From Candidatus Haladaptatiplasma halalkaliphilum (GTDB lineage: Archaea > Thermoplasmatota > Thermoplasmata > Halarchaeoplasmatales > Halarchaeoplasmataceae), in contig JAFDTY010000010.1 in assembly GCA_019594055.1 (NCBI GenBank), positions 1 through 35,365 of the forward strand: DNA of 35,365 nucleotides, given 5' to 3'. Below, in pieces: positions 3,570 through 19,900 of the stretch. Made by a program: the position numbers and the translations under genes. The first letter of the stretch is position 1; each line of letters starts with the position of its first letter. The notes under the pieces are model-generated. The model did no database searches. It saw only the letters and a list, made by a program, of their open reading frames with translations, and had not been told where the DNA came from.

Positions 3570-6500
3570 TCAATACTCCACGGTCCAGACCACGCTGTGG
3601 TCCGCACCGTTGTAGATCCAGTAACCCTGACCAGGTTCGAAGACGAAGTTTTCCGGATCGTAGTCGTATACAAGATTGTACTCGTCGGAAGCGTCGAAGT
3701 AACCTATCCGGGTCACTTCCACCGGCAGATCATGATTGCCCGCACTCTGACTGGGCAGCCCCACCATGTTCCATCCGGGGTGGAGTGTGATGTCCGTACT
3801 CACTGGCGCATATCCCTCTACTGTAAGGGTAACATCCTCGGTTACGCGTATCCAGACGCCCATGGAGTGGTCCCACGTTTGAAGAGTATTGTAGTGATCC
3901 GGCCTGCCGGGTACATACGTGAACCACTCGTCATGGGATGCATCGTACCACATCAGCTGATCGTAGCTACCATCTATACCCGCCAACAGGATATCCAAGG
4001 ACGTGTCATCCGGAAATAGATTGAAGGAAACGAAGTTCCAGCCGTCGTTATCCGCTGTTACGGTCAGATCGATGGCGAAGTCATATACATCCGGTAGATC
4101 CTGCCACTGGAACAGGGGATAGGTGAATCCCTCTATCATGTGCCATGTATCATCGAAGTCCCAGTCCACATCTGTGAAGGTGCTCTGGGTCATCATCTCA
4201 GCAGTTGTCTTGGGTTCGCCCTTGCCAGTGTCAGACTGGCCTGTGGTTTCCAGATCGTAAAAACTTTGCACAACTGAGCCTTCAAAAATCCCTCCGGAAA
4301 GTCCACCTACCGAACCGACACCGCTCACGTTTCCCGTGGCATATGAACGAGTTATGCTTGCTCGATAGTTGTTACCGGACAACCCGCCAACCAAACTTGC
4401 TCCGGTCACGTCACCGTGTGCATAGCTATTGGCGATAAAACCTGCGGCGATGTTCATACCCACAAGCCCGCCAGCCACATTATCTGCTCCGGTCACATCC
4501 GCGGTAGAATAACATCTCCTTACTATGCCACCTTCGTTGTTACCGATCAAGCCGCCGGTCCTGCGATAATTACCTATCACGCTTCCCGTGGAGTACGAAT
4601 CTTCCACAGTACCGAAGTTGGATCCTGCAAGCAAACCGACATAGGATTCACCGATCACTTCTCCTTCCAGTAGACCTACTCCACTGACCGTACCCTGGGA
4701 ACCGATGGTTCCGAACAGACCTATTTGATCGGTTTCGGGTCTGTTGATATACAGCCCGCTTACTGTGTTACCGTGGCCTTCCAGAGAACCCGTGAACCTG
4801 TTGGAACTCGTACCGATGGGAACGAAACCCATGCCTTCATCAGCATCGGTACCCCACATGCTGGCCCGATTGTTCATGCCCGCGGTGAGGTCGATGTCCG
4901 CTACAAGTGTGTAATCTGCTCCTAAGTCCATGGTCATGAGTTGTAACTGGTGGCTGTTATGTATCTCGGTTGAATATTCCGACCGCAAGAAAGGCCTTGT
5001 TTCGCCGTCCATCATCCACCATGTATCTGTGAAGTCCCAGCCTGAGAAGGTGCTCTGGGTCATCATCTGGGCGGTGTTCCTGCCTTCCACCTCGCCCGGG
5101 CCTTCTCCTGTAGAGCTTGTCTGTCCGCTTGTTTCGACATCCCAGAAGTTCCCGGTCATCTCGTAGTTTCCACCGGTCTCCACTGTCCCAAGGAAACCTC
5201 TATCGCTAGGTTGTGTGGAATCTTGCCAATACACAGGACCGGTAGAGTAACAGTTGATTATCTTCGATCTGTAATTACGGCCACAGAAACCCGCTAAACT
5301 CGTCTGAGTTCCCGTTGTTCGTGTTACGGCACCCGTTGAATAGCAGTTGTATATATCACCGTTCGAACTGGTGAATCCCATGAATCCACCCACGGTACTA
5401 CTACCGAAAACGTTACCTGTCGCGTAAGAATATCTAATGGTCTGTCCCGAGTTACGTCCCACGAGTCCGCCTACACTGGAAGTCCCGGATACATCTCCCG
5501 TTGCATAACAGCGTTCGATTATCCCATAGGTTTTAGTGCCGACAAGACCACCTACATGGGAAGAAGAACCTGTGGTATCGACTGTGGAATATGAATCTGT
5601 AAGCCTGGATTCGATACTAACGAAAGAACCTAGGAGACCCCCTACAAATGCATTGCCTGATACCACGCCGGTGGAATATACATTGTCGATTATTCCACGA
5701 TCTCTGCATTCACCGATCAAACTTCCCGTATGATCAACACCGGTTATATCAACGTCCGTAAGTCCGAGATTTTTTATCTCTGCTCCTGATACGTACCCGA
5801 ATAGACCTACATGATTGGTTTCGTCCCGGTGGATATACAGATTTGAGATAGTAAAGTTGTTGCCATCCAGCGACCCCGTGAAATGGTGGTCTGATGTTCC
5901 CACTGGCTCGAATCCCGCACCACCGTTCCATCCTACGGTGGCCGAAGCATCTATGTCGTTTGCAAGCATGTAATGAGCGCTAAGGTCGTTATTCATGTTC
6001 TGCAGACCTTCCACGTCGAATATGATGTAAGGGTATTCCTCGGTTCCGTGTCCTTGTCCTGCTATCCCCCTTAGCAGTGGATAAGTCTGACCTTCCATGA
6101 TCATCCAGACATCGTCGAAGTCCCAGCCCACGAAGGTATCCTGGCTCATCATCTCGGAGGTTGTTTTACCCTCTACTTCTCCCGCACCCTCTCCTGCAGA
6201 GTTAGTCTGTCCACTTGTTTCAATGTCCCAGAAGTTTCGGATCATCTCGAAGTTGCCCCCAGTATAAATGATACCTACAAAACCTTTGTCCGTCGGATCA
6301 TCGGTTCCTTCGTAATGCACGCTACCGGTAGAGTAGCAGTTTATAATCGTTGTCTGAAAGTTCATTCCTATGAATCCACCTATATTTTCGCTAGCACCGG
6401 TGGCACGGGTAACTGTACCTGTGGCGTAAGAGTTCATTATTACCCCTTCTATATTTTTTCTCCCTATGAATCCACCTACTTCGTCTGCTCCTGTTACGTC

Positions 6501-8336
6501 ACCGGAAGAGTACGAATTTAATATATCGATTGGAGCGGGCCCTGCTGGTTGGCGTGCATATCCAATCAAACCACCAACACTTTGACTATTGGGCGCATAA
6601 ACCTCTGCCGTCGAATAACAATCTATGATAGTTGTTCCCGTAACGGACTCTCTGATTATTCCGACCAGTCCGCCGACGCCGTAATCACCTATGGATTGAG
6701 TCACAGTACCTGAAGTTCCTACATTCTTTATAAAAGAATCTCCTTTAACTGTTCCGGCCAATATTCCAGTTCCTTGATTAAATGAATCTCCTGCACCGTC
6801 TATAGATGCGTCGAATATTCTCAGGTTCTCCACGACTGCACCGTACATCTGTCCAAATAAGCCAACTCTTGTGGTGCTCGGGCGGTTGATATGAAGGCCG
6901 TTTATGGTATAGTTATTACCGTCTAAACCACCCGTGAATGGATTTATGCCGTTGCCTATGGGCAAGAACCCGTCACCATCGTTCCATCCTACAGTTTCAG
7001 AAGCGTCTATGTCGTTGGCCAGTATGTAATGTGCGCTCAGGTCGTTCCTCATGTTCTGCAGATCATCCACGTTGAAAATTACATAAGGGTATTCCTCGGT
7101 TCCATGCCCTGCTATCGCCCTTAGCACAGGATACGTTTGACCTTCCGACATCCACCAGATATCATCGAAGTCCCAACCAGCATCGGTGAAGGTGCTCCGA
7201 GTCTTCATCTCGGCGGTTGTCATACCCGTAACATTACCTGCTCCTTCTGACGTGGAGCTAGTCTGTCCACTTGTTTCGACATCCCAGAAGTTGCCGGTCA
7301 TCTCGTAATTACCATCTGTATCCACTGTCGCAAGGAAACCTCTATCACTAGGTTGTGTGGAATCTTGCCAGTAAACAGGACCGGTAGAATAGCAGTTGAT
7401 TATCCTCGATCGAGAATTGCGAGCGGAGAAACCAGCTAGATCCGTCGCAGTTCCCGTTGTTCTTGTTACGGTACCAGTTGAATAGCAGTTGAATATATTT
7501 CCATTCGTAGAGGTTCTTCCCACGAATCCACCCACGTTACTTCTACCGAAAACGTTACCTGTTGCGTAAGAATATATAATAGATTGTCCCGAGTTACTTC
7601 CCACGAGTCCGCCTACCCCCCAATCGCCGCTCACGTCTCCCGTTGCATAACTGCGTTCAATTACCCCATAGGTTTTACTGCCGACAAGACCTCCTACATA
7701 TAAAGAAGAACCTGTGGTATCTACTGTGGAATGTGTATCTGTAATCCGGGTACCAACATCTCTGACCAGTCCTATGAGACCTCCCACATCTCGTTGGCCG
7801 GATACCACACCGGTGGAATATACATTTTCAATCATTCCTCCGTTTCTAAGTAAACCGACCAAACTTCCCGTATTCTCTCCACCGGTTATATCAACATCTA
7901 TAAGTCCGAGGTTTTTTATCTCTGCTTCAGATACGCATCCGAAGAGACCTATATAATCGGTTTCGTCCCGGTCGATATACAGATTCGAGATAGTAAAGTT
8001 GTTGCCATCCAGCGATCCGGTGAAATGGTTCTCAATTTCGTTAAAAGGCCCTGTCCCCACAGGCTCGAATCCCGCACCACCGTTCCATCCTACGGTCTCC
8101 GAGGCATCTATGTCGTTAGCCAGTGCATAATTCCCGCCGAGATCCAAATTCATATCCTGCAGGTCGTCCACATCGTAGATCATCACAGGATCATCACGGG
8201 TACCGCTATCCCTGATCATCCTTTCCTCTCTAATCTCGGTTTCCGAACTGAAGTCAAATCCCATGGCAACGAAGGCCACACTTCCTATCACCAGCATCAC
8301 TGCCAGACTGAATACCAGCATCTTTTCTATTTTCAT
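3570..8336 (-). CDS. GLUG-repeat exported surface protein, 1588 aa
   Basis: The start is ATG 8334-8336, preceded by GGAG with a 7-nt spacer, and gives a signal peptide (MKIEKMLVFSLAVML...). Four modules follow, beginning at about residues 49, 417, 767 and 1127, each opening with DLQ(D/N)M or LQLM. Each runs through DIDASETVGWN..GF and many GLUG motifs (VGGLVG, YATGDV, YSTG) to FWD(V/I)ETSGQT and a TTAEMMTQSTF..WDFDD closing block. Modules 1 and 3 are much more alike, in DNA too, than either is to module 2. Residues 1423-1588 form the C-terminal two-repeat GWN module shared with the next two paralogs. There is no C-terminal transmembrane helix or sorting motif. It is probably a secreted or S-layer-associated repeat protein; the ligand is unknown. 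Confidence 0.93.
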   Translation of the reverse strand: MKIEKMLVFSLAVMLVIGSVAFVAMGFDFSSETEIREERMIRDSGTRDDPVMIYDVDDLQDMNLDLGGNYALANDIDASETVGWNGGAGFEPVGTGPFNEIENHFTGSLDGNNFTISNLYIDRDETDYIGLFGCVSEAEIKNLGLIDVDITGGENTGSLVGLLRNGGMIENVYSTGVVSGQRDVGGLIGLVRDVGTRITDTHSTVDTTGSSLYVGGLVGSKTYGVIERSYATGDVSGDWGVGGLVGSNSGQSIIYSYATGNVFGRSNVGGFVGRTSTNGNIFNCYSTGTVTRTTGTATDLAGFSARNSRSRIINCYSTGPVYWQDSTQPSDRGFLATVDTDGNYEMTGNFWDVETSGQTSSTSEGAGNVTGMTTAEMKTRSTFTDAGWDFDDIWWMSEGQTYPVLRAIAGHGTEEYPYVIFNVDDLQNMRNDLSAHYILANDIDASETVGWNDGDGFLPIGNGINPFTGGLDGNNYTINGLHINRPSTTRVGLFGQMYGAVVENLRIFDASIDGAGDSFNQGTGILAGTVKGDSFIKNVGTSGTVTQSIGDYGVGGLVGIIRESVTGTTIIDCYSTAEVYAPNSQSVGGLIGYARQPAGPAPIDILNSYSSGDVTGADEVGGFIGRKNIEGVIMNSYATGTVTRATGASENIGGFIGMNFQTTIINCYSTGSVHYEGTDDPTDKGFVGIIYTGGNFEMIRNFWDIETSGQTNSAGEGAGEVEGKTTSEMMSQDTFVGWDFDDVWMIMEGQTYPLLRGIAGQGHGTEEYPYIIFDVEGLQNMNNDLSAHYMLANDIDASATVGWNGGAGFEPVGTSDHHFTGSLDGNNFTISNLYIHRDETNHVGLFGYVSGAEIKNLGLTDVDITGVDHTGSLIGECRDRGIIDNVYSTGVVSGNAFVGGLLGSFVSIESRLTDSYSTVDTTGSSSHVGGLVGTKTYGIIERCYATGDVSGTSSVGGLVGRNSGQTIRYSYATGNVFGSSTVGGFMGFTSSNGDIYNCYSTGAVTRTTGTQTSLAGFCGRNYRSKIINCYSTGPVYWQDSTQPSDRGFLGTVETGGNYEMTGNFWDVETSGQTSSTGEGPGEVEGRNTAQMMTQSTFSGWDFTDTWWMMDGETRPFLRSEYSTEIHNSHQLQLMTMDLGADYTLVADIDLTAGMNNRASMWGTDADEGMGFVPIGTSSNRFTGSLEGHGNTVSGLYINRPETDQIGLFGTIGSQGTVSGVGLLEGEVIGESYVGLLAGSNFGTVEDSYSTGSVIGNYRRTGGLIGNNEGGIVRRCYSTADVTGADNVAGGLVGMNIAAGFIANSYAHGDVTGASLVGGLSGNNYRASITRSYATGNVSGVGSVGGLSGGIFEGSVVQSFYDLETTGQSDTGKGEPKTTAEMMTQSTFTDVDWDFDDTWHMIEGFTYPLFQWQDLPDVYDFAIDLTVTADNDGWNFVSFNLFPDDTSLDILLAGIDGSYDQLMWYDASHDEWFTYVPGRPDHYNTLQTWDHSMGVWIRVTEDVTLTVEGYAPVSTDITLHPGWNMVGLPSQSAGNHDLPVEVTRIGYFDASDEYNLVYDYDPENFVFEPGQGYWIYNGADHSVVWTVEY
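3573..4070 (-). repeat. Conserved C-terminal GWN module, copy 1
   Basis: This encodes the last 166 residues of the 1588 aa protein. Two subrepeats are visible: DGWNFVSFNL...GVWIRVTEDVTL and PGWNMVGLPS...GQGYWIYNGA, ending VEY-stop. Copies with the same length and the same end are at 11561-12058 and 16930-17427. The GWN..V..P pattern followed by GYW(V/I) is common at the ends of secreted proteins. A surface-attachment or assembly role is inferred from its fixed terminal position. Confidence 0.85.
4635..4759. repeat. Inter-gene near-identical repeat, copy 2 (partner 1-125)
   Basis: This 125-bp block lies inside module 4 of the 1588 aa gene and differs from window bases 1-125 at one site. The right boundary of identity is sharp. 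Synonymous positions are also conserved, so protein-level constraint alone does not explain it. Confidence 0.9.
5140..8140. repeat. Duplicated GLUG module pair (modules 1 and 3) spaced ~2.14 kb
   Basis: The block AAGGAAACCTCTATC near 5190 recurs near 7332, 2142 bp (714 codons) away, within long flanking similarity. The module starts near 5924 and 8081 also match. The unrelated-looking module 2 lies between them, so the current order suggests duplication of a module and later replacement or insertion of another. Confidence 0.75.
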
Positions 8337-8504: not shown

Positions 8505-8538
8505 AAAAAAAGCCGCGCAACCTGAACTGATTCCGCTT
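8505..8538. repeat. 34-bp direct repeat, copy 1
   Basis: Seven A's are followed by GCCGCGCAACCTGAACTGAT and TCCGCTT. An exact second copy is at 8619-8652 (114-bp spacing). Read on the minus strand, each copy ends in a T7 run preceded by a GC-rich stretch, as expected for a termination signal. That reading is tentative because the possible stem is imperfect. Confidence 0.85.
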
Positions 8539-8539
8539 A

Positions 8540-8561
8540 GCTTTCATTTTTCAAAATGAAA
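8540..8561. repeat. Perfect 10-bp inverted repeat with 2-nt loop
   Basis: Arms CTTTCATTTT and AAAATGAAAG flank the dinucleotide TC. It lies between the two 34-bp direct repeats. It could be a terminator hairpin or part of a small non-autonomous element. Confidence 0.75.
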
Positions 8562-8618: not shown

Positions 8619-8652
8619 AAAAAAAGCCGCGCAACCTGAACTGATTCCGCTT
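8619..8652. repeat. 34-bp direct repeat, copy 2
   Basis: An exact copy of 8505-8538, followed by TTTGTTTTT. The pair brackets an AT-rich 80-bp segment containing the 10-bp hairpin. No coding sequence is visible from 8410 to 8700. Confidence 0.85.
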
Positions 8653-8704
8653 TTTGTTTTTCATCTCTTACTTCGTCAATATAAATTTACAATACCTTCT
8701 ATGT

Positions 8705-9054
8705 AAAATCACAGAATTCAATTGTTTTTGGAGAAGGATTTGGCAGTGTTCTGGCGGTGATATGTTTTTGATCTGTTGGGCGTGATGGTGGCATGTGGTC
8801 GATCTTTCGGAAATCATTTCCAAAGACATTTGAAACTCCGTTCCAAAAATGTCTACTGGAATTTTCTTCCAAAATTCCTTCGATTAGAGGAATTAGTTCC
8901 TCTATTTTTGGAATCTTAGATTCCGAAACTTTCGGGAACTCGTTCCCGATAATGCCAACCGAAGCACGTGTCTACTGGAATTTTAACCTAAAATTCCATC
9001 GAGTATCTGAATTTTCAGGGAAAATACTGAAATACACGAACCACCAACCGAATA
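8705..9054. repeat. Island-flanking repeat, left copy (with 150-bp extra segment)
   Basis: Bases 8705-8866 align without gaps to 10941-11102 with about five differences. Bases 9009-9054 then align to 11095-11140 with one difference. The left copy therefore carries about 150 bp of extra hairpin-rich sequence between the two matching blocks. The duplicated GTCTACTGGAATTTT (8851 and 8970) borders part of this extra segment. The two copies bracket the AbiE-type gene pair in direct orientation. No transposase is present. Confidence 0.9.
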
Positions 9055-9073
9055 TTGGAATACGGTTGGTGGT
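8809..9073. repeat. Hairpin array A (about nine consecutive inverted repeats)
   Basis: Inverted repeats follow one another almost without gaps. They are at 8809-8821 (6-bp arms), 8824-8854 (AGACATTT/AAATGTCT), 8858-8878 (GGAATTTT/AAAATTCC), 8885-8904 (TAGAGGAA/TTCCTCTA), 8910-8924 (GGAATC/GATTCC), 8932-8949 (TCGGGAAC/GTTCCCGA), 8976-8998 (10-bp arms, TGGAATTTTA), 9007-9018 (CTGAA/TTCAG) and 9040-9073 (11-bp arms, ACCACCAACCG). Arms are typically 8 bp with loops of 2-5 nt. The array lies downstream of the toxin gene on the same transcribed strand. Function unknown. Confidence 0.85.
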
Positions 9074-9190
9074 GATGGCGTTGGAGGCGGTTGTGATGGT
9101 GTTGGTGGTGGGGGGTTTGACCTCCCGAACGTGTTTAAGACTTGAAGATGTTTTCAACGTGTTTAAGATTTGAGATGATTTTAAGGCGTC
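9060..9190. other. GT-rich low-complexity stretch and 28-bp-spaced direct repeat
   Basis: Bases 9063-9118 are strongly G/T-biased on the plus strand (GGTTGGTGGT, GGTGTTGGTGGTGGGGGG), with several GG tracts. Next, ACGTGTTTAAGA occurs at 9129 and 9157. No gene is supported. An open frame across this region on the plus strand has no homology I recognise and is made of the hairpin repeats. Confidence 0.6.
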
Positions 9191-9191
9191 T

Positions 9192-9959
9192 TCAGAAGTG
9201 CAATATTTCGTTAAGTTCTTCTTTAACTTCCTCGAATTCCGGAACCCGGTCTAAGAAACTTTCTAGATCTCTTTTCCATGTATTTTTCAAAGTTTTTAAT
9301 CGGTTTTGGTATTCTTCTTTATCCCATTTTTCCCAGTACCCCTCATGTTTTCTTTTTACCAGATCTAAATCGAAGTCGATTCCTTGTTTAATCAAAAACC
9401 AGATATCAAATAGGTCTTTACTTTCCGCTCTCATCATCAATGCTCTACACTTTTCAGCTAATATGCCCTTTATCGACATAGAGGGTATCTTGACTTTACC
9501 CCTGTTTTTCAGGTTTTTATAGTCGTGTAATATCTCTCCTTCATACATTGGTTCAAGAAGTTTTTCTCTTCCAGAAAAGTCCAGTTTTATAGAGTTTTTG
9601 TGTTGTAAAAGGCCTATGTATCCGATTCTAAAAGTTAGACCAGTATCAGAACAATTCAAATCTTTCGTACCCGTAAATTCAATACCTGATTCTTTGATAC
9701 TGTGGTTAAGGTTATCTTTTATCTGTTGAAAAATTTCTTCTCTACCGATCTCATAATAGTTGAAATCTAAATCCTCAGAGAATCTGGTTTTTGAATAATA
9801 TATCTTTTTGATGGCGGTGCCACCTTTGAAAACTAGATAGTCTAGAATACCTAAATCTTTTAGATGGATAAGAATGACGGATAAAACGTAATCTTTTTCC
9901 AAAATACCTACAGGGATATTTTCTCTGCCTGCTATCCTCCTGAGTTCATTTTCATCCAT
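9192..9959 (-). CDS. AbiEii-type nucleotidyltransferase toxin
   Basis: This is a 255-residue protein of the AbiEii/AbiGii toxin (DUF1814) family, nucleotidyltransferase fold. The core motif FKGGTAIKK lies at residues 44-52, and SEDLDF, with the two carboxylates expected at the active site, at 61-66. The family's helical motif with conserved K/R and D (LAEKCRALMMRAESKDLFD) lies at about 167-185. Characterised members are toxins that inactivate translation by modifying tRNA or binding nucleotide. I chose ATG 9957-9959, preceded by GGTGA, over a TTG 12 bases upstream. It overlaps the antitoxin stop by 8 bp, indicating translational coupling. Codon usage is clearly more AT-rich than that of the flanking surface genes, consistent with horizontal acquisition. 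Confidence 0.9.
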   Translation of the reverse strand: MDENELRRIAGRENIPVGILEKDYVLSVILIHLKDLGILDYLVFKGGTAIKKIYYSKTRFSEDLDFNYYEIGREEIFQQIKDNLNHSIKESGIEFTGTKDLNCSDTGLTFRIGYIGLLQHKNSIKLDFSGREKLLEPMYEGEILHDYKNLKNRGKVKIPSMSIKGILAEKCRALMMRAESKDLFDIWFLIKQGIDFDLDLVKRKHEGYWEKWDKEEYQNRLKTLKNTWKRDLESFLDRVPEFEEVKEELNEILHF

Positions 9960-10755
9960 GTATTTCACCAACCGTTGTATTCACTTTTAAACCCCATTTC
10001 TTGTCATACTCAAAATCGTCTTCGCTCTCTGTATAATCCAACCATCTATAACCTTTGAAGTCTTCTAACAGAGATCTTTCTAGATCTAGCGTTAATAGGT
10101 TTGACTCATCTAACAAGTAACCTAATCTCCTCTTCACCGCTTGGTTTGGAAATTTATTGGTCAATTCGACTAACTTTTCAAAGTCGATGTCGTCCTTCTT
10201 GCTTTTCAATCCTTTGACTACCGTTTTGATCCCTCCTGCGTAATCTGGTTTGTCTAAAGAATCGATTATCGTTTTTTCCATTGTGGCTATATTGAATCGC
10301 TTTTCATCCATCCTTTCTTCAGTGTATCCATAAAATTTCTTGTTGTGAATCTTGATAAATTTGATCCTTTGACCTTTCACTTCTATCGGATCTTTTGACC
10401 TTTTACAAGCTACATAAGTGATCGTCGGTAACTGGTCGGTAAATTCCCAATAGTTCAATGCCGACCAATACGAGATATAATATTCTTCCATGAGCACGGG
10501 AACTATCTTGTAGGGATGTTCTGACCAGAATCCCTCTACACCGGCTCTAGCAGGTGAAAGTATGTATTTCCCTCTTTCTATCTGGGTGATCCTGTTTTTA
10601 TTTTTCAATCTATAGATCACCTTTTTGACCGCGGGCCCTTTATCCTCCAAGATCTCCTTCGCTTCCTGTATAGTGAATACTATTTTATTTTCCTTTTCTA
10701 GGCCCATGATGAGCTCTGTTTCCCGGGGACCTAAATTTATATTTTTATTGCTCAT
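9952..10755 (-). CDS. AbiEi-type antitoxin / winged-helix regulator
   Basis: This 267-residue protein lies directly upstream of the AbiEii-like toxin and overlaps it. Residues ~10-70 form a winged helix (PRETELIMGLEKENKI ... RLKNKNRITQIERGKYIL). The middle has the AbiEi hallmark YYISYWSALNYW, and the sequence ATMEKTIIDSLDKPDYAGG is typical of the C-terminal antitoxin domain. Family members neutralise the toxin and repress the operon by binding inverted repeats at the promoter. A dyad covering its own start codon fits this. AT-rich like its partner. The cognate pairing is inferred from overlap and family. Confidence 0.88.
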   Translation of the reverse strand: MSNKNINLGPRETELIMGLEKENKIVFTIQEAKEILEDKGPAVKKVIYRLKNKNRITQIERGKYILSPARAGVEGFWSEHPYKIVPVLMEEYYISYWSALNYWEFTDQLPTITYVACKRSKDPIEVKGQRIKFIKIHNKKFYGYTEERMDEKRFNIATMEKTIIDSLDKPDYAGGIKTVVKGLKSKKDDIDFEKLVELTNKFPNQAVKRRLGYLLDESNLLTLDLERSLLEDFKGYRWLDYTESEDDFEYDKKWGLKVNTTVGEIHG

Positions 10756-10794
10756 AGTCCTTTGTCACGGGACTATATGTTATTAAAATATATA
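10754..10794 (-). promoter_or_regulatory. abiE promoter with candidate operator
   Basis: On the minus strand a TATA box (TATATTTTAATA, complement of 10781-10792) is centred ~32 nt before ATG 10755, implying an almost leaderless transcript. Inverted arms ATAGTCC (10754-10760) and GGACTAT (10770-10776), 9 nt apart, overlap the expected transcription start and the start codon. This is a good position for autorepression by the AbiEi protein. Confidence 0.6.
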
Positions 10795-10940
10795 AGATTT
10801 GTGGTGGGTTGTGAGTGTTATAATTCTAACGAGGCTAAAGACCGCTTCTATCTTTACGGGTATTTTAACATGAGTCGGCGTATATGGGGGATTTTGAAAG
10901 GGCTCACATATAAGATTATCGCACTTACCGTAATTTTTTT
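10795..10940. other. Gene-free stretch upstream of the abiE promoter
   Basis: No coding sequence is supported here. At its right end a perfect hairpin (GTAATTTT/AAAATTAC, 10930-10948, 3-nt loop) runs into the right copy of the island-flanking repeat. The left copy lacks this hairpin partner arm, so the repeat boundary falls inside the hairpin. Confidence 0.5.
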
Positions 10941-11140
10941 AAAATTACAGAATTCAATAGTTTTTGGAGAAGGATTTGGCAGTGTTCTGGCGGTGATATG
11001 TTTTTGATCTGTTGGGCGTGATGGTGGCATGTGGTTGATCTTTCGGAAATCATTTCCAAAGACATTTGAAACTCCGTTCCAAAAATGTCTACAGGAATTT
11101 TCAGGGAAAATACTGAAATACACGGACCACCAACCGAATA
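10941..11140. repeat. Island-flanking repeat, right copy
   Basis: Ungapped match of 10941-11102 to 8705-8866 (offset 2236), continuing as 11095-11140 to 9009-9054 (offset 2086). It keeps the hairpins equivalent to 8809-8821 and 8824-8854 at 11045-11057 and 11060-11090. A shorter echo of its end (ACCAACCG.ATATT) recurs at 11299-11310. Confidence 0.9.
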
Positions 11141-11144
11141 TTTC

Positions 11145-11501
11145 ACAGGAATAAACAGATTCCTGTTCTTCGACGAAACTTGCTTTTGTCGTAAGTTAGA
11201 TAAGTGTTTCCGACACTCAATAGATCATAGACTCCGTGAAGGACACATTTTCAGGGGGAGTGTGAGTGGAATTTATGGTTACTGGACAGGGTGAACACCA
11301 ACCGCATATTGGATTCCACCGGAACTAGTTCCGCTTCTTTAGCAGGAACCATGTTCCTGCAATTATCAGAATTTCCTCTTAGAAATTCTAATCATAGAGG
11401 AATGCATTCCTCTACTCTAATGAATACATCGTATTCATGTCGACACTCGGTGTTCGCAGGAAAGCAATGTGCTTTCCGAAGAAAAGGAGGACAATAGTCC
11501 T
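11145..11501. repeat. Hairpin array B (about ten consecutive inverted repeats)
   Basis: Inverted repeats are at 11145-11166 (ACAGGAAT/ATTCCTGT), 11203-11217 (5-bp arms), 11320-11333 (palindrome CGGAACTAGTTCCG), 11342-11360 (GCAGGAAC/GTTCCTGC), 11368-11389 (AGAATTTC/GAAATTCT), 11395-11414 (20-bp palindrome with arms TAGAGGAA/TTCCTCTA), 11420-11438 (ATGAATAC/GTATTCAT), 11443-11453 (ACAC/GTGT), 11459-11477 (GGAAAGCA/TGCTTTCC) and 11488-11501 (AGGAC/GTCCT). From 11320 on they are spaced about 25 nt start to start, with only 4-10 nt between them. The array lies 3' of the 1694 aa gene (stop at 11558) on its transcribed strand. Confidence 0.88.
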
Positions 11502-11557: not shown

Positions 11558-14500
11558 TCAATATTCAACTGTCCATATGGTTGGAGTATCCGCACCGTTG
11601 TAAACCCAGTAACCTCTACCCGGCTCGAAGACGAAGGCGGCCACATCGTAGTTGTACGCAACGTTGTATTCCATGGACGCATCGAAGTAACCTATCCGTG
11701 TCACTTCAGTGGGTAGACCGTGGTTGCCCGCACTCTCACTCGGCAGACCCACCATGTTCCAGCCGGGGTACAGTGTGATATCCGTGCTCTCCGGTATGCT
11801 GCCGAAAACCGTGAGGATAACATCCTCGGTTACACTTATCCAGACACCCATGGTGTTGTCCCACGACTGCAGATTGTTGAAGTGGGCCGCTCTTCCCGGT
11901 ACGTGGCTGAACCATTCACCGGTCAAAGTGTCGTAGTACATCAACCGGTCGTAACTTCCGTAAATATTGTGCAGTATCGCTTTCGGTGACGTGTCATCGG
12001 GAAGCAGGTTGAAGGAGACGAAATTCCATCCGTCACTATCCTCTGTTACGGTCAGGTGAACACTGTGTTGGTCGACCTCCGGAAGAGGCTGCCAATGCAG
12101 TAACGGGTAGGTGAAACCCTCCACCATGTGCCATGTATCATCGAAGTCCCAGCCTTCTTCCGTAAAGGTGTTCTCGGTCTTCATCTGGGCGGTGGGCAAT
12201 CCGGTAGCATTTCCCCCGGTACTGGTCTGACCACTTGTTTGAACATCCCAGAAATTTCCTTCCATATTGTAGTTACCGCCGGTATCCACCGTACCTAAAA
12301 AGCCCCTATCGTTCGGCTGGGTAGAATCTTGCCAATAAACGGCCCCGGTAGAATAAGAGTTGAAGATCCGGGCTTGAAAATTTCGTCCGCAGAAACCGGC
12401 TAAACTGGTCTGAGAATAGAGTGTTCGTGTAACAGTGCCGGTGGAATAGCAGTCGTAGATGCTTCCTCCGCTTAAGATACCGATGAAGCCGCCGACCGTA
12501 CTTCTTCCCGACACATCGCCTGTTGAAAAGGAATACCATATCATTCCCTGGGGTTTAGTTCCGATGAGACCGCCGATATTGCCGGTTCCCGTAACATCTC
12601 CCGTGGCATGACAACGTATGATGCTACCGTCTCCCCTGCCAACGAGACCTCCGACATTGTACGAGGAACCAGTGGCGTTAGCGGTGGAATATGAATCTGA
12701 TAGTGTTGATGAGATACTGCTAAAAAATCCTATGAGACCACCCACATGATGACCTCCGGACACCTCACCGGTGGAATATAGGTTCGAAAATACTCCGTCG
12801 CCCCTACCGTACAAACTTCCCGTGAAATTAGCACCAGTTATATCAACACCCGTAAGTCCGAGGTTCCTGATCTCCGCATCATCGACATACCCGAACAACC
12901 CGACATTGTCTGTTTTGTTACGGTATATGAACAGGTGGGATACCGTGAAATCTTTACCATCCAATGAACCCGTGAACCGGTGGTCTACAGTTCCCACGGG
13001 TTCGAAACCAGCACCGTCGTTCCATGTGCTGGTCTCCGAAGCGTCTATGTCATTGGCCAGGGCGTAGTGGGCGTTCAGGTTTGCATCCATATCCTGCAGG
13101 TCATATACGTTGAATATCCAGTAGGGATCTTCGGGGGTTCCCTGACCTGTGCCCCATATGTGCAAGGGGTAAGTTATACCTTCTATCATCCACCAGATAT
13201 CTTCGAAGTCCCAGCCGATGAAGGTGCCCTGGGTCTTCATCTCGATGGTTGTTTTCCCCTCACCGCCAGCGCTCACTGCTTGCTGTGAGGTTTCAGTATC
13301 CCAGTATGAGTTGATTACCTGTGCGTCCGCGTGTTTGAAGCCGATGAGTCCTCCCACATCAGTGCCGGGAGCACCGCCGTTTGCCAGTCCCGTGGAGTAG
13401 GAATTTTCGATTATGACATCAGCGCTAAAGATCCTTCCCACCAGACCTCCGATGCTGGCACCGGCAGGTCCGTCAACGGACCCATGGGAGGCGCTGTTAC
13501 GTATGCGGTTTCCGGAATGAAGGATACCCACAAGCCCGCCTGTCCTATCGTAGGTATGAGTGTTCACGTTTGCAACGTCAACGTACATCATCACACTCTC
13601 GATGATTACCGAACCTGTAGCGGAATAGCCGACCAGTCCGCCAACCCACCCGTTCCCGGTTACGGAACCGGTCACCTTCAGCATCTCTATGGTCGCAAAA
13701 CCATCGACCCGGCCGAACATCCCTACATAGAGCTCGTCAGGCCTGTTTATGTACAGGTCACCGATCACGTGGCCGTTGCCGTACAGAGAACCAGTGAACG
13801 GGTTACCCGATGTTCCTACGGACTCGAACCCGGCACCGTCGTTCCACATGGATGTTGAGGATGCGTCTATATCGTTTAGCAGTGTGTAATCCGCGTTAAG
13901 ATCCAGTTTCATGAGCTGCAGTTCCACCACAGTCGTTATCTCGGTGGTATGCACCCATTGCAGGTGTGGATACCCGGCCATGGCCCATTTACCGGGTATG
14001 GTAAAGTCCCAGCCGGTGAAGGTGCTCCGGGTCATCATCTGGTTGGTGGTCTTACCTTCACCGCCGTCGCTCACGGTTTGCCCGGAGGTTTCGGTATTCC
14101 AGTATGAGCTGATGACCTGTGCGCTCGCGTGTTTGAAGCCCACGAGACCGCCTACATTATCACCGGGAAGGCTCCCGTTCACCAGTCCGGTGGAGTAGGA
14201 ATTTTCTATGATGACATCAGGACTATGTATCCTTCCCACCAGACCGCCTATGGTGGCACCGGCACGTCCGTCAACTGACCCATGAGAAACACAGTTACGG
14301 ATGCGGTTTCCGTCATGAAGGATACCTACTAGTCCGCCAACTCTTTCCCAGGAATAAACGTTCACATTCTCAACATCAACGTTGGTCACAACGCCTTCAA
14401 CCAGGAGTGAACCCGAGTGCGAATAGCCGATAAGGCCACCCACCCAACCGTTTCCGGTGACGGAACCGGTCAATTTCAGGTTTTCCACAGTTGCACCCTC

Positions 14501-16642
14501 GACCCGGCCGAAAAGACCCACATTTACCGCATTTGGCCTGTTGATGTACAGATACCTGATCTCGAATCCATTTCCGTACAAAGCGCCCGTGAACGTGCTA
14601 TCCGCTGTTCCTACGGGAACGAAACCCGCACCACTGTTCCATGTGCTGGTTTCCGAGGCGTCTATGTGGTTGACCAGTGCATAATGCCCGTTGAGGTCAT
14701 CCCACATGTCCTGCAGGTCGTGCACATCCGATATGGGATAAGGGTGTTCCGGAGTTCCGTGACCCGGTGCCCACCTGTGCAGAGGATATGTTTGATCCTG
14801 TATCATCCACCATACGTCTTGAAAATCCCAGCCCGTGAAGGTGCTCCGGGTCATCATCTGGGCAGTGGTCCTCGGCTCTCCCTTACCCACGTCACCCTGG
14901 CCTGTGGTTTGCAGATCGTAATAACTGTTTGACACCGTGCCGGTGTTGTCTCCGACAAGTCCGCCTACTATGTTTGAGCCGGTCACTGCGCCAGCCGCAT
15001 ACGAGTTGGATATCTGTCCCAGGTTCGTCCCCACAAGGCCACCCACACGATCAACAGCAGCACTGCTGGCGGTGGCGTATGAATCCGATATGATACCCAG
15101 TCTGTTGTAACCCACGAGACCTCCCACATAACTAGGGCCGGAAACGGCACCCGTGGCGTGGGAGTTATGGACGGTTCCTTCGTTGTTGTACCCCAGCACA
15201 CCCCCGATATACCAGCTGCTGCCCACCGTGCCTGAGATGATCCCGGTGGTGTAACAGTTTGCGATGGTTCCATGGTGGTTCCGCCCTGCTATCCCGCCCA
15301 CCGTCCTATAGGCAGTTGCGTGCCCCGTACTGTAGGAGTATATGATGGTGCCCCGGTTTACACCTACTATCCCACCAACACCCGTGTATCCCACGATCTC
15401 GTTATCTATCATCCCCAAATATTTTAAGGAGCCGGTGGTGCCCAGGTGACCGAACAGTCCGATGGAGGAGGTGTCCGGTCTGTCGATGTACAGCCCGGTT
15501 ATGGTATGATTATTACCATCAAAAACGCCGGAAAAATGGTTCCCGGGTTCGTCCCATGGCCCCGGTGCTACGGGCTCGAAGCCCGCACCACCGTTCCACA
15601 TGGATGTTGAGGATGCGTCTATATCGTTCATGAGGGTATAATCCGCGGTGAAATCCAGCTTCATGAGCTGAAGTTCCTCCACCGTGGTTATCTCTGTGGT
15701 ATGCTCCCACTGAAGCCTGGGATAGCCGGCCATGGCCCACATTCCCGGAATGTCGAAATCCCAGCCCGCGAAAGTGCTCTGGGTCATCATCTCGGCGGTG
15801 GTTTTACCCTCGCCGCCTGCGCTCACACCTTGTCCCGAGGTTACGGTATCCCAGTATGAACTGATGACCTGGGCATCCACGTGTTTGGAGCCCACGAGTC
15901 CTCCCACTTCAGCGCCGGGAACACCCCCGTTCACCAGACCGGTGGAGTAGGAATTTTCCACGATGACATCGGCAAGATGGATCCTACCCACCAGACCGCC
16001 GATGCTGGCGCTCGCGGGTCCGTCAACGGACCCATGAGAAGTACAGTTACGTATGCGGTTTCCATTATGGAGTACACCCACAAGCCCGCCGACCCTCTCT
16101 ATGGTATAAGTGTTCACGTTTGCAACATCCACTTCCATCACAACCCCTTGGATGGTGAGCGGACCAGACACAGAATAACCGACCAGTCCGCCGACCCAAC
16201 CGTTGCCGGACACGGAACCGGTCACCTTCAGATTTTCTATGGTCGCACCATTAACTTGGCCGAACATACCAACATTGAGTTCACCCGGCCGGTTTATGTA
16301 CAGATCCCTGATCTCGTATCCGTTTCCGTCCAAAGTACCGGTGAACGGGTTAGTTCCGGTTCCCACCGGCGCGAATCCCGCACCTCCGTTCCATGTGCTG
16401 GTTTCCGATGCGTCTATGTGGTTCGCCAACACGTAATTCCCGTTCATATCCAGACTCATGTCCTGCAGGTCGTGGACGTCGTATATCATCACCGGGTCCT
16501 GCCGGGTATCGTTACCTCTGATGACCTCTTCTTCTTTCAGCTCGGTTTCCGAACTGAAGTCAAATCCCACGGCAACGAAGGCCACGCTACCCATCACAAG
16601 CATCAGCGTCAGGCTGAACACCATCATCTTTTCCATATCCAT
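11558..16642 (-). CDS. GLUG-repeat exported surface protein, 1694 aa
   Basis: The start is ATG 16640-16642 with GGAG 8 nt upstream, giving a signal peptide (MDMEKMMVFSLTLML) like the two left-hand paralogs and the same following motif (DFSSETE...R.DPVMIYD). Five modules begin near residues 52, 314, 636, 899 and 1174, alternating between a DLQDM type and an ELQLM type. Modules 1, 3 and 4 share a distinctive block (NGWVGGL(V/I)GYS, GNRIRNC.SHGSVDG, ENSYSTGLVNG), whereas module 5 resembles those of the 1588 aa protein (VYWQDSTQP.DRGFLGTV). Residues 1529-1694 are the shared C-terminal GWN module. Extracellular; adhesive or structural role inferred. It appears to be a mosaic assembled from at least two module lineages. 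Confidence 0.93.
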   Translation of the reverse strand: MDMEKMMVFSLTLMLVMGSVAFVAVGFDFSSETELKEEEVIRGNDTRQDPVMIYDVHDLQDMSLDMNGNYVLANHIDASETSTWNGGAGFAPVGTGTNPFTGTLDGNGYEIRDLYINRPGELNVGMFGQVNGATIENLKVTGSVSGNGWVGGLVGYSVSGPLTIQGVVMEVDVANVNTYTIERVGGLVGVLHNGNRIRNCTSHGSVDGPASASIGGLVGRIHLADVIVENSYSTGLVNGGVPGAEVGGLVGSKHVDAQVISSYWDTVTSGQGVSAGGEGKTTAEMMTQSTFAGWDFDIPGMWAMAGYPRLQWEHTTEITTVEELQLMKLDFTADYTLMNDIDASSTSMWNGGAGFEPVAPGPWDEPGNHFSGVFDGNNHTITGLYIDRPDTSSIGLFGHLGTTGSLKYLGMIDNEIVGYTGVGGIVGVNRGTIIYSYSTGHATAYRTVGGIAGRNHHGTIANCYTTGIISGTVGSSWYIGGVLGYNNEGTVHNSHATGAVSGPSYVGGLVGYNRLGIISDSYATASSAAVDRVGGLVGTNLGQISNSYAAGAVTGSNIVGGLVGDNTGTVSNSYYDLQTTGQGDVGKGEPRTTAQMMTRSTFTGWDFQDVWWMIQDQTYPLHRWAPGHGTPEHPYPISDVHDLQDMWDDLNGHYALVNHIDASETSTWNSGAGFVPVGTADSTFTGALYGNGFEIRYLYINRPNAVNVGLFGRVEGATVENLKLTGSVTGNGWVGGLIGYSHSGSLLVEGVVTNVDVENVNVYSWERVGGLVGILHDGNRIRNCVSHGSVDGRAGATIGGLVGRIHSPDVIIENSYSTGLVNGSLPGDNVGGLVGFKHASAQVISSYWNTETSGQTVSDGGEGKTTNQMMTRSTFTGWDFTIPGKWAMAGYPHLQWVHTTEITTVVELQLMKLDLNADYTLLNDIDASSTSMWNDGAGFESVGTSGNPFTGSLYGNGHVIGDLYINRPDELYVGMFGRVDGFATIEMLKVTGSVTGNGWVGGLVGYSATGSVIIESVMMYVDVANVNTHTYDRTGGLVGILHSGNRIRNSASHGSVDGPAGASIGGLVGRIFSADVIIENSYSTGLANGGAPGTDVGGLIGFKHADAQVINSYWDTETSQQAVSAGGEGKTTIEMKTQGTFIGWDFEDIWWMIEGITYPLHIWGTGQGTPEDPYWIFNVYDLQDMDANLNAHYALANDIDASETSTWNDGAGFEPVGTVDHRFTGSLDGKDFTVSHLFIYRNKTDNVGLFGYVDDAEIRNLGLTGVDITGANFTGSLYGRGDGVFSNLYSTGEVSGGHHVGGLIGFFSSISSTLSDSYSTANATGSSYNVGGLVGRGDGSIIRCHATGDVTGTGNIGGLIGTKPQGMIWYSFSTGDVSGRSTVGGFIGILSGGSIYDCYSTGTVTRTLYSQTSLAGFCGRNFQARIFNSYSTGAVYWQDSTQPNDRGFLGTVDTGGNYNMEGNFWDVQTSGQTSTGGNATGLPTAQMKTENTFTEEGWDFDDTWHMVEGFTYPLLHWQPLPEVDQHSVHLTVTEDSDGWNFVSFNLLPDDTSPKAILHNIYGSYDRLMYYDTLTGEWFSHVPGRAAHFNNLQSWDNTMGVWISVTEDVILTVFGSIPESTDITLYPGWNMVGLPSESAGNHGLPTEVTRIGYFDASMEYNVAYNYDVAAFVFEPGRGYWVYNGADTPTIWTVEY
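11561..12058 (-). repeat. Conserved C-terminal GWN module, copy 2
   Basis: Last 166 residues of the 1694 aa protein, aligned end to end and without gaps with the copies in the 1588 and 1373 aa proteins. Invariant elements include DGWNFVSF, the VPGR block, MG(V/I)WI.VTE, ITL.PGWNMVGLPS and GYW(V/I)YNGAD. There are no cysteines and no hydrophobic tail. Confidence 0.85.
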
Positions 16643-16684
16643 TTTATCGGCTCCTAAAGGTCTCTTATTTCGCTTATATAGTCA
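16643..16684 (-). promoter_or_regulatory. Promoter of the 1694 aa GLUG gene
   Basis: A TATA box (ACTATATAAG on the minus strand, 16674-16683) is centred ~36 nt before the ATG, leaving a leader of ~10 nt plus the GGAG ribosome-binding site. It abuts the first of two long hairpins immediately upstream. Confidence 0.6.
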
Positions 16685-16769
16685 AGGACACAACTTTTAA
16701 TCAATTTAATTGTGTCTTTGACTAGCAGTGGAGGACATAACGAATTACAAATAAGTTATGTCTTCCACT
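16681..16769. repeat. Two tandem long imperfect hairpins upstream of the promoter
   Basis: Hairpin 1 has 13-bp arms at 16681-16693 (GTCAAGGACACAA) and 16710-16722. Hairpin 2 has 15-bp arms at 16727-16741 (AGTGGAGGACATAAC) and 16755-16769. Each stem has exactly one non-Watson-Crick pair. In both, this is a G opposite T at the same place relative to the shared GGACA core, which would be a G-U wobble in a plus-strand RNA. They may be operators, a terminator, or a structured RNA. Confidence 0.75.
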
Positions 16770-16798
16770 ATAATCTATTCCACCTGACCATCGATTGA

Positions 16799-16926: not shown

Positions 16927-19900
16927 TTAGTAGTCCACGGCCCATATGACTGGAGTATCCGCACCGTTGTAAACCCAGTAACCTCTACCGGGCTCGAACT
17001 CGAAGGCGGCCACATCGTCGGTGTACGCAACGTTGTATTCCATTGATGCGTCGAAGTAGCCTACCATGGTCACCTCGGCCGGTAAACCGTGGTTTCCCGG
17101 GCTGTTACTCGGCAGCCCAACCATGTTCCATCCGGGGTAGAGTGTTATATCCGTAGTATCGGGGAGCTCTCCTACCAGGGAGATGGTGACATTCTCGGTT
17201 ACCCTGATCCATATGCCCATGGTATGGTCCCACGTTTGAAGAGTATTGAAATGATCCGCTCTTCCTGGGACATAGGTCTGCCATTCTCCTTGGAAAGCGC
17301 CGTACCACATGACCCTGTCGTAGTTGCCTTCGATATCAGCGAGTATGCTCTCCAGGTCTGTGTTGTCAAGTATCAGATCGAAGGAGACAAAGTTCCAGCC
17401 ATCGGCTTCCTCGTTCATCATCAGGGATACATGGGTTATCGGCACCACGGTAACGTTGACGGGACCCGAGGAGATGCCGTTGTATTCAGCCGTGACTACG
17501 TACTCGCCCGGAACCGTCTCGGAGAACAGTCCTTCAGAAGTCGTGTTCGCCCACTGGAAGTCCGAGGACACATCGGTGATGAGGTTGTCGAAGGGGTCGT
17601 ATGCACGGGTCGAGAACTGTATGGTATCCCCGGATATGATGGTCTGATCTTCATCCGGGTCTGTCTCGACGTAAGATACGCCGGCAGCCGTAACCGTGAG
17701 ACTGGTTTCGTTGCTCCACACTCTATAAGTACCTCTTACTGTCCACGTACCAGCCTTTGCAGATGTGTAGTCAAAGGCAATCCACGAACCTTCCGCGTCC
17801 AGGTCTATGGACCATGTCGTGCCGTAGGGGATGGAAATGAGCAAATTCCCGTCAGCGTCGTATGCATGGGCGGAATAAGAGACTGTCTCTCCCGCAGTCA
17901 CGGTTACATCCATGGGCACGATCACTATATGATCCACTTCCACACTTCTTTCCCACCACAAACGAGGATAGTCGTTGTTCTGGTGGATGAACCACATCTC
18001 ACTGAAATGGCTAAGTATCTCAGCTATATCCCAGCTGGCATCGGCGAAAATGGTTATATCCATCATCTCGGCGGTGGTCTTCCCGATTGCTTCACCGGCA
18101 GTAGAGGTTTGGCCGCTGGTCTCCATATCCCAGAAGTTGCCGGTCATCTCGTAGTTGCCACCGGTGCTCACATCTCCGGCGAAACCTTTATCGGTGGGGT
18201 CAACGGCGTTTGCATAGGTGACTTTCCCGGTGGAGTAGCTGTTAACGATGGATCCTTCGTTGTTGTTTCCCACAAATCCGCCGCATCTTATATCGCTGCC
18301 CACCCCAGTCCTTCGGACATCACCATGTGCATAGCAATCGGCGATTGTCCCTCCGTCGTTTTGACCCGCAAGGCCGCCTATCCTGCCATTTCCGGTAACA
18401 TCACCGGTAGCAAAGGATCGCTCTATTGCCCCATAATTTCTACCTACAAGCCCACCCATATATTCCCTGTTTCCTCCGGCCACATCCATGGAAGACCGGG
18501 AGTCTATGATATTCCCGGTAGCTGCATTCGATCCCACAAGCCCGCCAGCCACATTTTGACTTGAAGATACCCCTTCTCCTGAAGAGCTCGAACTGCTGAT
18601 CAAACCGCTATTGGATCCAACCAGTCCGCCCACTATCTGGGAAGAAGAAACGACCTCTCCGTTTACATGGCAGTTAATTATCGAACCCGTATTCTGTCCT
18701 GCCAATCCCCCTGTAAACTGTCTTCCGCGCACATAGAGGTCTTCAAGCTTTATGTTCTCTATTGTTCCGTCCGATCTTCCAAATAATCCAATTCGATCAG
18801 TAGTTCTCCTCATGTGTAGGTTGCTGATCACATACCCCTGCCCGTCAAGGTGGCCCGTGAAGATGGAACCCAGTGTTCCAACGGGGAAAAACCCTCTACC
18901 ACTGGTTTCTGTTGATCCCCACATGCTGGCAGCGTTGGTTATGTCTGAGCAGTCTACATCATTCACCAGCACATAGTCGGCATCCAGGTCCATGGCCATC
19001 ATCTGAAGCTGGTGACTGTTACTTATCTCGGTACGGTATTCCATCTGCAAGAACGGGCGGGTATCGCCGTCCACCATCCACCAGTTGTCTTCAAAATTCC
19101 ACACCGAACCGGAAAAGGTCTCCTGCATCATCATCTCCGCAGTGGTCTTTCCGATGCCCAACCAACTTGTTTCCGTACCTGACGTTTCAACGTCCCAGTA
19201 ACACCCCGCGGTGTTCGTTCCCATGCTCTGGCCTGCGAAGCCACCTACGTTAAGATACCCTGTCACCTGACCCGTGGAGTAGGATGCATAGATCACCTCT
19301 GAAGATGAATAGCCAACAAAACCGCCGACCCTCTGACCGACCCCCACATCGCCGGTGGCATAGCAATATCTGATCCTCCCGTAACTTCGTCCCACCAGAC
19401 CTCCGACCTCAAAGCTGCCTTGGACGCTGCCCGTGGCATAACATCTTATGATATTGTAATAGAAGGGGTGACTATCATCCATACCTACCAATCCCCCCAC
19501 ATGCGCGCTACCGGTCACATCCACAGCGGCATAGGATCTGTATATCTTGCCACCGTTCTTTCCCACCAGCCCCCCGACATTGTTTGTTCCGTCCACCTGG
19601 CCGGAAGCGTGGCTGTTATCCACGGTGCCTTTGTGGTTCATTCCCACCAGCGCACCTACGGAATTGTTGCCCCTCACGTCCGCGTCGAGCATTCCCGCGT
19701 TGCTGACCACCCCGTCCTCTCCCAAGTATCCGAACAATCCCACATCGTTCGTATCGGGCCTGTTGATGTACAGTCCCTTGATGGTATGGTTCCGGCCGTG
19801 AAAACTTCCGGTGAACCTGTTGGCATCCGTCCCCACAGGCACGAACCCGGCTCCATCGTTCCATTCCATGGTCATGCTCGCGTCTATGTCCTTCATGAGG

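Follow-up and report, generated by a model that had tools for sequence, protein, structure and literature searches.

The DNA analysed here, referred to as the window, is a 35,365-bp stretch (contig C87) of the 1.82-Mb draft genome of a Thermoplasmata archaeon, hereafter the own genome; it carries two arrays of closely spaced hairpins, array A (8809-9073) and array B (11145-11501). We favour as the probable explanation that, in these arrays, copies of a dispersed and non-coding palindromic element of one archaeal family have accumulated, a DNA element resembling the repetitive extragenic palindromic sequences (REPs), bacterial interspersed mosaic elements (BIMEs) and Rickettsia palindromic elements (RPEs). 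The element is dispersed through the genomes of the family and restricted to it, its arms covary, it accumulates in tandem, and it is present in frame in coding sequences whose orthologues lack it; from this we infer active movement, an enzyme acting in trans, recognition of the DNA hairpin and joint rewriting of the arms. The family consists of Thermoplasmata, relatives of Ca. Halarchaeoplasma, and these salt-lake archaea are represented by 16 genomes of six genera; all genomes compared are fragmented drafts.

Hairpin density in arrays A and B

Hairpins were counted strictly, as perfect arms of at least 8 bp with a loop of at most 6 nt, and the counts were compared with 2000 dinucleotide shuffles; array A held 4 such hairpins against a shuffled mean of 0.06 (maximum 2), and array B held 6 against 0.04 (maximum 2). 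A sequence-only reading of the window had described about 9 and 10 inverted repeats, respectively, and had proposed a count of this kind; its array coordinates and quoted arm sequences were correct on re-check, and the arrays are present at a density far above chance that shuffling fails to reproduce, although the strict counts are lower, the remainder being imperfect or shorter stems. Elsewhere in the window, none of 320 tiles of 300 bp contained even two strict hairpins. Seven genomes of the family, sampled over about 1.1 Mb, contained 52 hairpins with an 8-bp arm and a 3-nt loop, where shuffled sequence contained 6; there were 13 clusters of at least three, and none after shuffling. The hairpins of the two arrays are:

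8858-8878, array A, GGAATTTT/AAAATTCC
8885-8904, array A, TAGAGGAA/TTCCTCTA, loop TTAG
8910-8924, array A, GGAATCT/AGATTCC
8932-8949, array A, TCGGGAAC/GTTCCCGA
8976-8998, array A, TGGAATTTTA/TAAAATTCCA
9040-9073, plus strand, closing inverted repeat at the end of array A, ACCACCAACCGAAT/ATACGGTTGGTGGT, 14-bp arms, 93% complementary
11320-11477, plus strand, dense part of array B, six hairpins, as follows
11320-11333, array B, CGGAACTAGTTCCG
11342-11360, array B, GCAGGAAC/GTTCCTGC
11368-11389, array B, AGAATTTC/GAAATTCT
11395-11414, array B, TAGAGGAATG/CATTCCTCTA; the loop read earlier as TGCA is itself palindromic
11420-11438, array B, ATGAATAC/GTATTCAT
11459-11477, array B, GGAAAGCA/TGCTTTCC

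A recurring twin-hairpin unit

Alignment of the arrays with sequences from the own genome and from relatives revealed a recurring skeleton of about 60-70 bp, 5'-TCTAC-(hairpin 1, TGGAA(N)..(N')TTCCA)-TCGATnTTT-(hairpin 2, (N)GGAA(N)..(N')TTCC(N'))-GAAACAT-3'. A covariance model, R1, was built from 16 seed copies of this twin-hairpin unit, in which 93% of paired cells are standard pairs, changes on both sides occur at 10 of the 16 pairs, and 27 cells are changed on both sides against 7.2 in shuffles. R1 recognised three clear units in array A and one in array B (11035-11088), plus one degenerate unit in array B; the scores of the window units are high by construction, since the seed includes three of the four clear ones, and the remaining one is nearly identical to a seed copy. 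The matches are:

8799-8852, minus strand, unit A3, two hairpins, in the opposite orientation to A1 (R1 47.8 bits, E 1.8e-12; in the seed)
8849-8934, plus strand, unit A1, TCTAC-(TGGAATTTT..AAAATTCC)-TTCGAT-(TAGAGGAA..TTCCTCTA) (R1 52.6 bits, E 5.9e-14; in the seed); its two hairpins end at 8904 and the R1 match extends to 8934
8900-8955, minus strand, weaker unit overlapping the end of A1, with hairpins 8910-8924 and 8932-8949 (R1 21.9 bits, E 2e-4)
8968-9038, plus strand, unit A2, TCTAC-(TGGAATTTTA..TAAAATTCCA)-TCGAGTATC-(second hairpin) (R1 51.3 bits, E 1.5e-13; in the seed)
11035-11088, minus strand, near-identical copy of unit A3 (R1 45.7 bits, E 8.6e-12)
11345-11390, minus strand, degenerate unit in the dense part of array B (R1 E 0.0012)

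Dispersal of the unit through one family

When relatives were searched with R1, a kind of search that the sequence-only reading had suggested, the unit was recovered family-wide and with compensatory changes: matches were found in 16 of 16 genomes and in all six genera, at 3-37 per genome and with E-values down to about 1e-17, including genomes that gave no seed (G001, G002, G007, G012, G014 and others). Among 134 further genomes of the class outside the family, a single one gave a match, and a weak one (E 7.6e-4). Given this dispersal, the idea that the two arrays are a private pair is not supported. A covariance model was needed because an exact double-hairpin pattern, searched for in 60 relatives, GTDB contigs and viral contigs, matched the own genome only; the simple motif GGAAYNNNRTTCC, tried as a genome-wide marker, was enriched in the family but elsewhere too, and was not decisive. 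Scans of the own genome, for unit matches and for a Y1 transposase motif, covered about 0.9 Mb, or about half of it, where R1 gave 30 matches at E <= 0.01, several of which are both-strand matches to one palindromic copy. Units also occur as tandem clusters, and a large number of copies are found where contigs end, as would be expected for repeats. Those contig ends, together with the draft state of every assembly, might suggest chance or assembly artefact in AT-rich sequence, to which we attach a negligible probability; it is already refuted by recovery of the unit from 16 different assemblies and from within open reading frames, by the covariation described below, and by the shuffles, which yield just 0.04-0.06 such hairpins per array.

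Between genes, units were found in divergent (11), convergent (9) and tandem (19) arrangements, with no preference for gene ends or orientation. The arrays of the window do lie 3' of minus-strand genes, as had been stated, but this does not make them a 3' untranslated region (3'-UTR) feature, as copies occupy all gene arrangements as well as coding sequence. Among relatives of the array-adjacent secreted-protein genes, 3 of 83 3' flanks held an array, all three in the own genome; on account of the 80 homologous flanks without one, a 3'-UTR element of secreted GLUG-type proteins was rejected.

Joint change of the two arms

Covariation was measured in 50 distinct copies, all from genomes other than the window's; three of them, namely L334 and the two L335 copies, match sequences of the seed. 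Standard pairs made up 96.6% of cells; 101 cells were changed on both sides against 26.8 in shuffles, and the covariation score was 0.381 against 0.113, values that lean towards structure because the alignment was fitted to the model. A one-column slide of the pairing partner abolished the signal, and despite the fitted alignment, pairing is discernible by eye in unaligned copies. The two matched arm changes noticed earlier between arrays A and B are borne out as one case of this family-wide pattern.

One explanation for such a pattern is that the unit is a structured RNA, be it a 3'-UTR stabiliser, a terminator or a small RNA, with its stems under selection on the transcript. Strong covariation of the stems, a fixed and conserved architecture such as is looked for in a structured RNA, and the conserved unpaired flanks TCTAC, TCGAT and GAAACAT all speak for it, as does the position of some copies, including the window arrays, after genes. 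The pairs themselves are of a different kind: of 745 cells in the 50 copies, 705 (about 95%) are Watson-Crick, and the G.U wobble tolerance expected of a structured RNA was not seen, G.T (15 cells, 2%) hardly exceeding A.C (8 cells) on the modelled strand. For two thirds of the double changes (66 of 101), no route by way of G.U exists; a survey of rRNA genes placed 61% of its instantaneous compensatory changes in the G.U-reachable class (PMC8794818). Also at odds with an RNA are the lack of preference for 3' ends or orientation, the 80 of 83 related secreted-protein 3' flanks without arrays, the copies in frame inside proteins (see below), and a search of Rfam 15 that gave no match to a described RNA family. 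We consider a structured RNA unlikely. Of the two causes named by the sequence-only reading, selection on paired positions or copying of the arms, both began from arms that change together, which they do (101 cells against 26.8); copying fits better than ordinary RNA selection because pairing is nearly pure Watson-Crick, G.T hardly exceeds A.C, and most double changes have no G.U path. The data thus point to DNA-level pairing or joint copying of the arms more than to stepwise RNA selection.

Whole-arm replacement was also seen, loci L367 and L361 sharing the same 5' flank while the arms of hairpin 2 are replaced. Both this and the Watson-Crick strictness could be accounted for with no mobile element at all, if palindromes were made and kept perfect in place, within AT-rich spacers, by template switching or fold-back DNA synthesis, a known mechanism which creates or repairs perfect stems and gives multibase compensatory change (PMC8794818). 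It would leave unexplained the shared skeleton at unrelated loci, the restriction to one family, the fixed geometry of 8-bp arms and 3-nt loops (52 against 6) and the extra gene segment absent from orthologues, and as a sole cause it appears to us quite improbable; such synthesis may, in addition, act on the arms of a dispersed element. With arms peculiar to each copy and a skeleton that stays constant, the unit separates RNA selection from DNA-level copying, two commonly confused causes of covariation, which bears on the rule that covariation proves functional RNA.

Copies in frame inside protein genes

Two unit copies lie inside long open frames. At L346 (G002), the unit supplies, in frame, about 22-24 residues of an AAA-ATPase/TPR protein, and the orthologues L025 (same genus) and L125 align across the region with a gap at the unit. 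In RHS-repeat genes of G003 (L334/L102) and G007 (L337), the unit is read in frame as the 20 residues DVSKFLWNSKDRWNCTAIPV, with ..RFIS before them and D.MGM.DG.. after; at this position the RHS gene of G011 (L344) has no such segment and continues uninterrupted, and it contains another unit elsewhere in its own frame. The G007 copy may belong to a gene remnant, because its frame has a stop codon further upstream within the stretch that was matched. Each of the two comparisons with an empty site showed a 3-bp direct repeat bordering the filled one (GAT..GAT and GAC..GAC). Near AbiEii frames, two further units (L336 and L351) were left out of the in-frame set, since it is uncertain where the frame starts.

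A probable proliferating DNA element

We reasoned that the unit is probably a proliferating DNA element because its placement is not linked to transcription, its pairing is DNA-like, and a 62-nt unit has been gained or lost at a tRNA 5' end. Copies would be inserted at new places, including in frame in genes; a putative enzyme, supplied in trans, would probably act on the folded single strand, moving or copying units, and tandem or nested insertion would build the arrays. Perfect arms might be kept because a broken stem would go unrecognised, and/or because fold-back or template-switch synthesis would copy one arm anew from its partner; an alternative or added cause of joint arm change could be selection for a perfect DNA stem.

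Several observations weigh against an element of this kind. A permutation test on the 50 copies showed no general target-site duplication, the in-frame copies are few, and no insertion is dated as recent. The strong conservation of stems in old copies needs continued maintenance, beyond what mobility alone gives. A motif scan of about 0.9 Mb, half of the own genome, gave no convincing Y1 (HUH) transposase, and a transposase gene lying between units was seen in a single case, a decayed IS200/IS605-type TnpA gene of G014, recognised by motif (L379:1962-2430).

Hairpin units at tRNA ends

Within 300 bp on each side of 99 tRNA genes of the family, 96 perfect hairpins with 8-bp arms were found against about 6 in shuffled sequence; in tRNA-flank hairpins with a single mismatch, G.T (38) and A.C (33) are about equally frequent. 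The terminal 8-mer of the tRNA itself recurred in 17 leaders and 22 trailers, where the 8-mers of other tRNAs predict 0.8 and 0.7, in a set that was partly fetched by similarity to one tRNA-Leu flank and in which adjacent tRNA genes may account for some of the copies counted (for example, 2 trailers in the C10 cluster). In two sets fetched by tRNA search alone, the own 8-mer recurred in 10 leaders and 14 trailers of 56, against 0.8 and 0.6; 31 tRNA genes from three other families of the class showed no own-end copy, and 9 hairpins against 4. A leader mini-stem, GCGAGGGTTAC(ACAGGAACcctGTTCCTGT)TCACTCCTCGC, precedes a tRNA-Leu starting GCGAGGG, and GCGGGGG..CCCCGC precedes a tRNA-Leu starting GCGGGGG. 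Two species of one genus differ by a 62-nt unit, which one has and the other lacks, placed exactly at the first base of the tRNA.

Example flanks with own-end-copying hairpin units are L044:8400-9060 (tRNA-Leu), L046:6600-6934, L251, L083 and L136, and further ones are L078 and L238 (tRNA-Gln leader, tRNA-Arg trailer). A conserved module, GATGAGAACC..GGTTCGTGAGC-(hairpin)-GAGC-(hairpin)-AATCCC with the tRNA 3' end repeated after it, occurs in the trailers at L238, L240, L242, L251, L261, L278 and L024. An integron attC origin was considered for the layout of outer stem, internal loop and inner stem near tRNA ends; in a by-eye look, RYYYAAC/GTTRRRY boxes were not seen.

The likeness of the tRNA-flank units to the twin-hairpin unit lies only in clade and in layout, which comprises an outer stem, an internal loop and an inner GGAA/TTCC hairpin. 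It is a tentative and rather doubtful proposal that both belong to one palindrome-cassette system, in which folded-DNA units would enter spacers, genes (in frame) and exact tRNA ends through one hairpin-acting enzyme, and in which the unit would copy the terminal 8-16 bases of the tRNA and their complement, thereby restoring the tRNA and building rows of acceptor-stem look-alikes on either side. Should they be of the same system, the tRNA-end copies would represent a tRNA-gene-associated element of a new kind.

Other features of the window

Arrays A and B are partly duplicates of each other, as two long stretches, missed by the sequence-only reading, are 98% identical. These direct repeats flank an AbiEii/AbiEi operon (9192-10755), which could be lost by recombination because it is bounded by them:

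8704-8866, plus strand, head direct repeat, copy 1, upstream part of array A, 98% identical to 10940-11102
9009-9056, plus strand, tail direct repeat, copy 1, 98% identical to 11095-11142
9192-9971, minus strand, AbiEii nucleotidyltransferase toxin gene of a type IV toxin-antitoxin pair (Pfam PF08843, E 1.8e-30)
9952-10755, minus strand, AbiEi antitoxin gene (Pfam PF09407, E 3.3e-6, above cut-off)
10940-11102, plus strand, head direct repeat, copy 2, upstream part of array B, 98% identical to 8704-8866
11095-11142, plus strand, tail direct repeat, copy 2, 98% identical to 9009-9056
11241-11315, minus strand, dispersed backbone sequence piece, also at C43:116-191 of the own genome (77% identity, E 1.6e-8)
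16677-16772, plus strand, 96-bp element with two hairpins and ends TATAGT...ACTATA, similar to a miniature inverted-repeat transposable element (MITE)

A link of the unit to AbiE operons was rejected; units or hairpins lie beside some AbiE loci (L319, L320, L329), and most AbiE loci are without them. Just upstream of array A, a direct repeat, AAAAAAGCCGCGCAACCTGAACTGATTCCGCTT, occurs at 8507-8541 and 8621-8652.

A run of genes at 3570-8336, 11558-16642 and 16927-21048 encodes very large secreted proteins in which GG-V-GLxG (GLUG-like) repeats are numerous; the large secreted proteins of the window have in common a C-terminal domain of about 160 residues, with 17-18 occurrences in the own genome. 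The nearest named relatives of the window's secreted proteins are from Ca. Halarchaeoplasma halalkaliphilum and metagenome-assembled genomes of hypersaline sediments.

Two families of MITE-like elements of about 93-96 bp, each with two hairpins and TATAGT..ACTATA ends, were observed, at window 16677-16772 and at L009:851-943, L010:302-394, L017:4951-5043 and L073:2367-2459.

Comparison with known systems

Hairpins made by template switching resemble those of the unit in their perfect stems and multibase compensatory changes (PMC8794818); template switching is a mutation process, whereas the unit forms a dispersed family with a conserved skeleton. Archaeal MITEs are likewise non-coding, dispersed and 50-500 bp long, and some twin-hairpin units lie inside longer TATAGT..ACTATA elements (205 bp at L043:9445-9649; 415 bp at L342:977-1391); the unit itself differs in having neither terminal inverted repeats, which only the TATAGT elements possess, nor, beyond the 3-bp direct repeats at two in-gene copies, a general target-site duplication.

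REPs, BIMEs and REPINs are short, dispersed palindromes, often paired or clustered in mosaic arrays and in some cases within genes (PMC3733652), and the twin-hairpin unit shares with them its dispersal in many copies and its clusters. A GTAG/CTAC tetranucleotide adjoins hairpin 1, and REPs have GTAG at the 5' foot of their hairpin (PMC6006769); in the unit, however, CTAC lies 5' of hairpin 1, so that the other strand reads TCGA-hairpin-GTAG, with the tag on the opposite side, and this wrong polarity rules out identity with GTAG-tagged REPs. The unit further differs in arms that vary freely while complementarity is kept, and in consisting of two different hairpins. The TnpA gene flanked by units in G014 recalls the partnership of REPs with REP-associated tyrosine transposases (RAYTs, also TnpAREP), as one case with the gene identified by motif alone; a motif scan of half of the own genome found no clear Y1-motif frame that could be a RAYT.

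RPEs, too, are palindromic, dispersed in many copies and found in frame inside protein genes (PMC10969869; PMC3733652), and in-frame presence beside uninserted orthologues was found here for the AAA-ATPase and RHS genes. RPEs are about 150 bp long and end in CGTC (PMC10969869; PMC3733652); the unit is about 60-70 bp, has TCTAC/GAAACAT ends and is archaeal, and it is likened to them by behaviour and not by homology. Palindromic repeats that enter genes in frame have been a bacterial curiosity, known from RPEs and REPs; the present family is archaeal, and provides uninserted orthologues for comparison.

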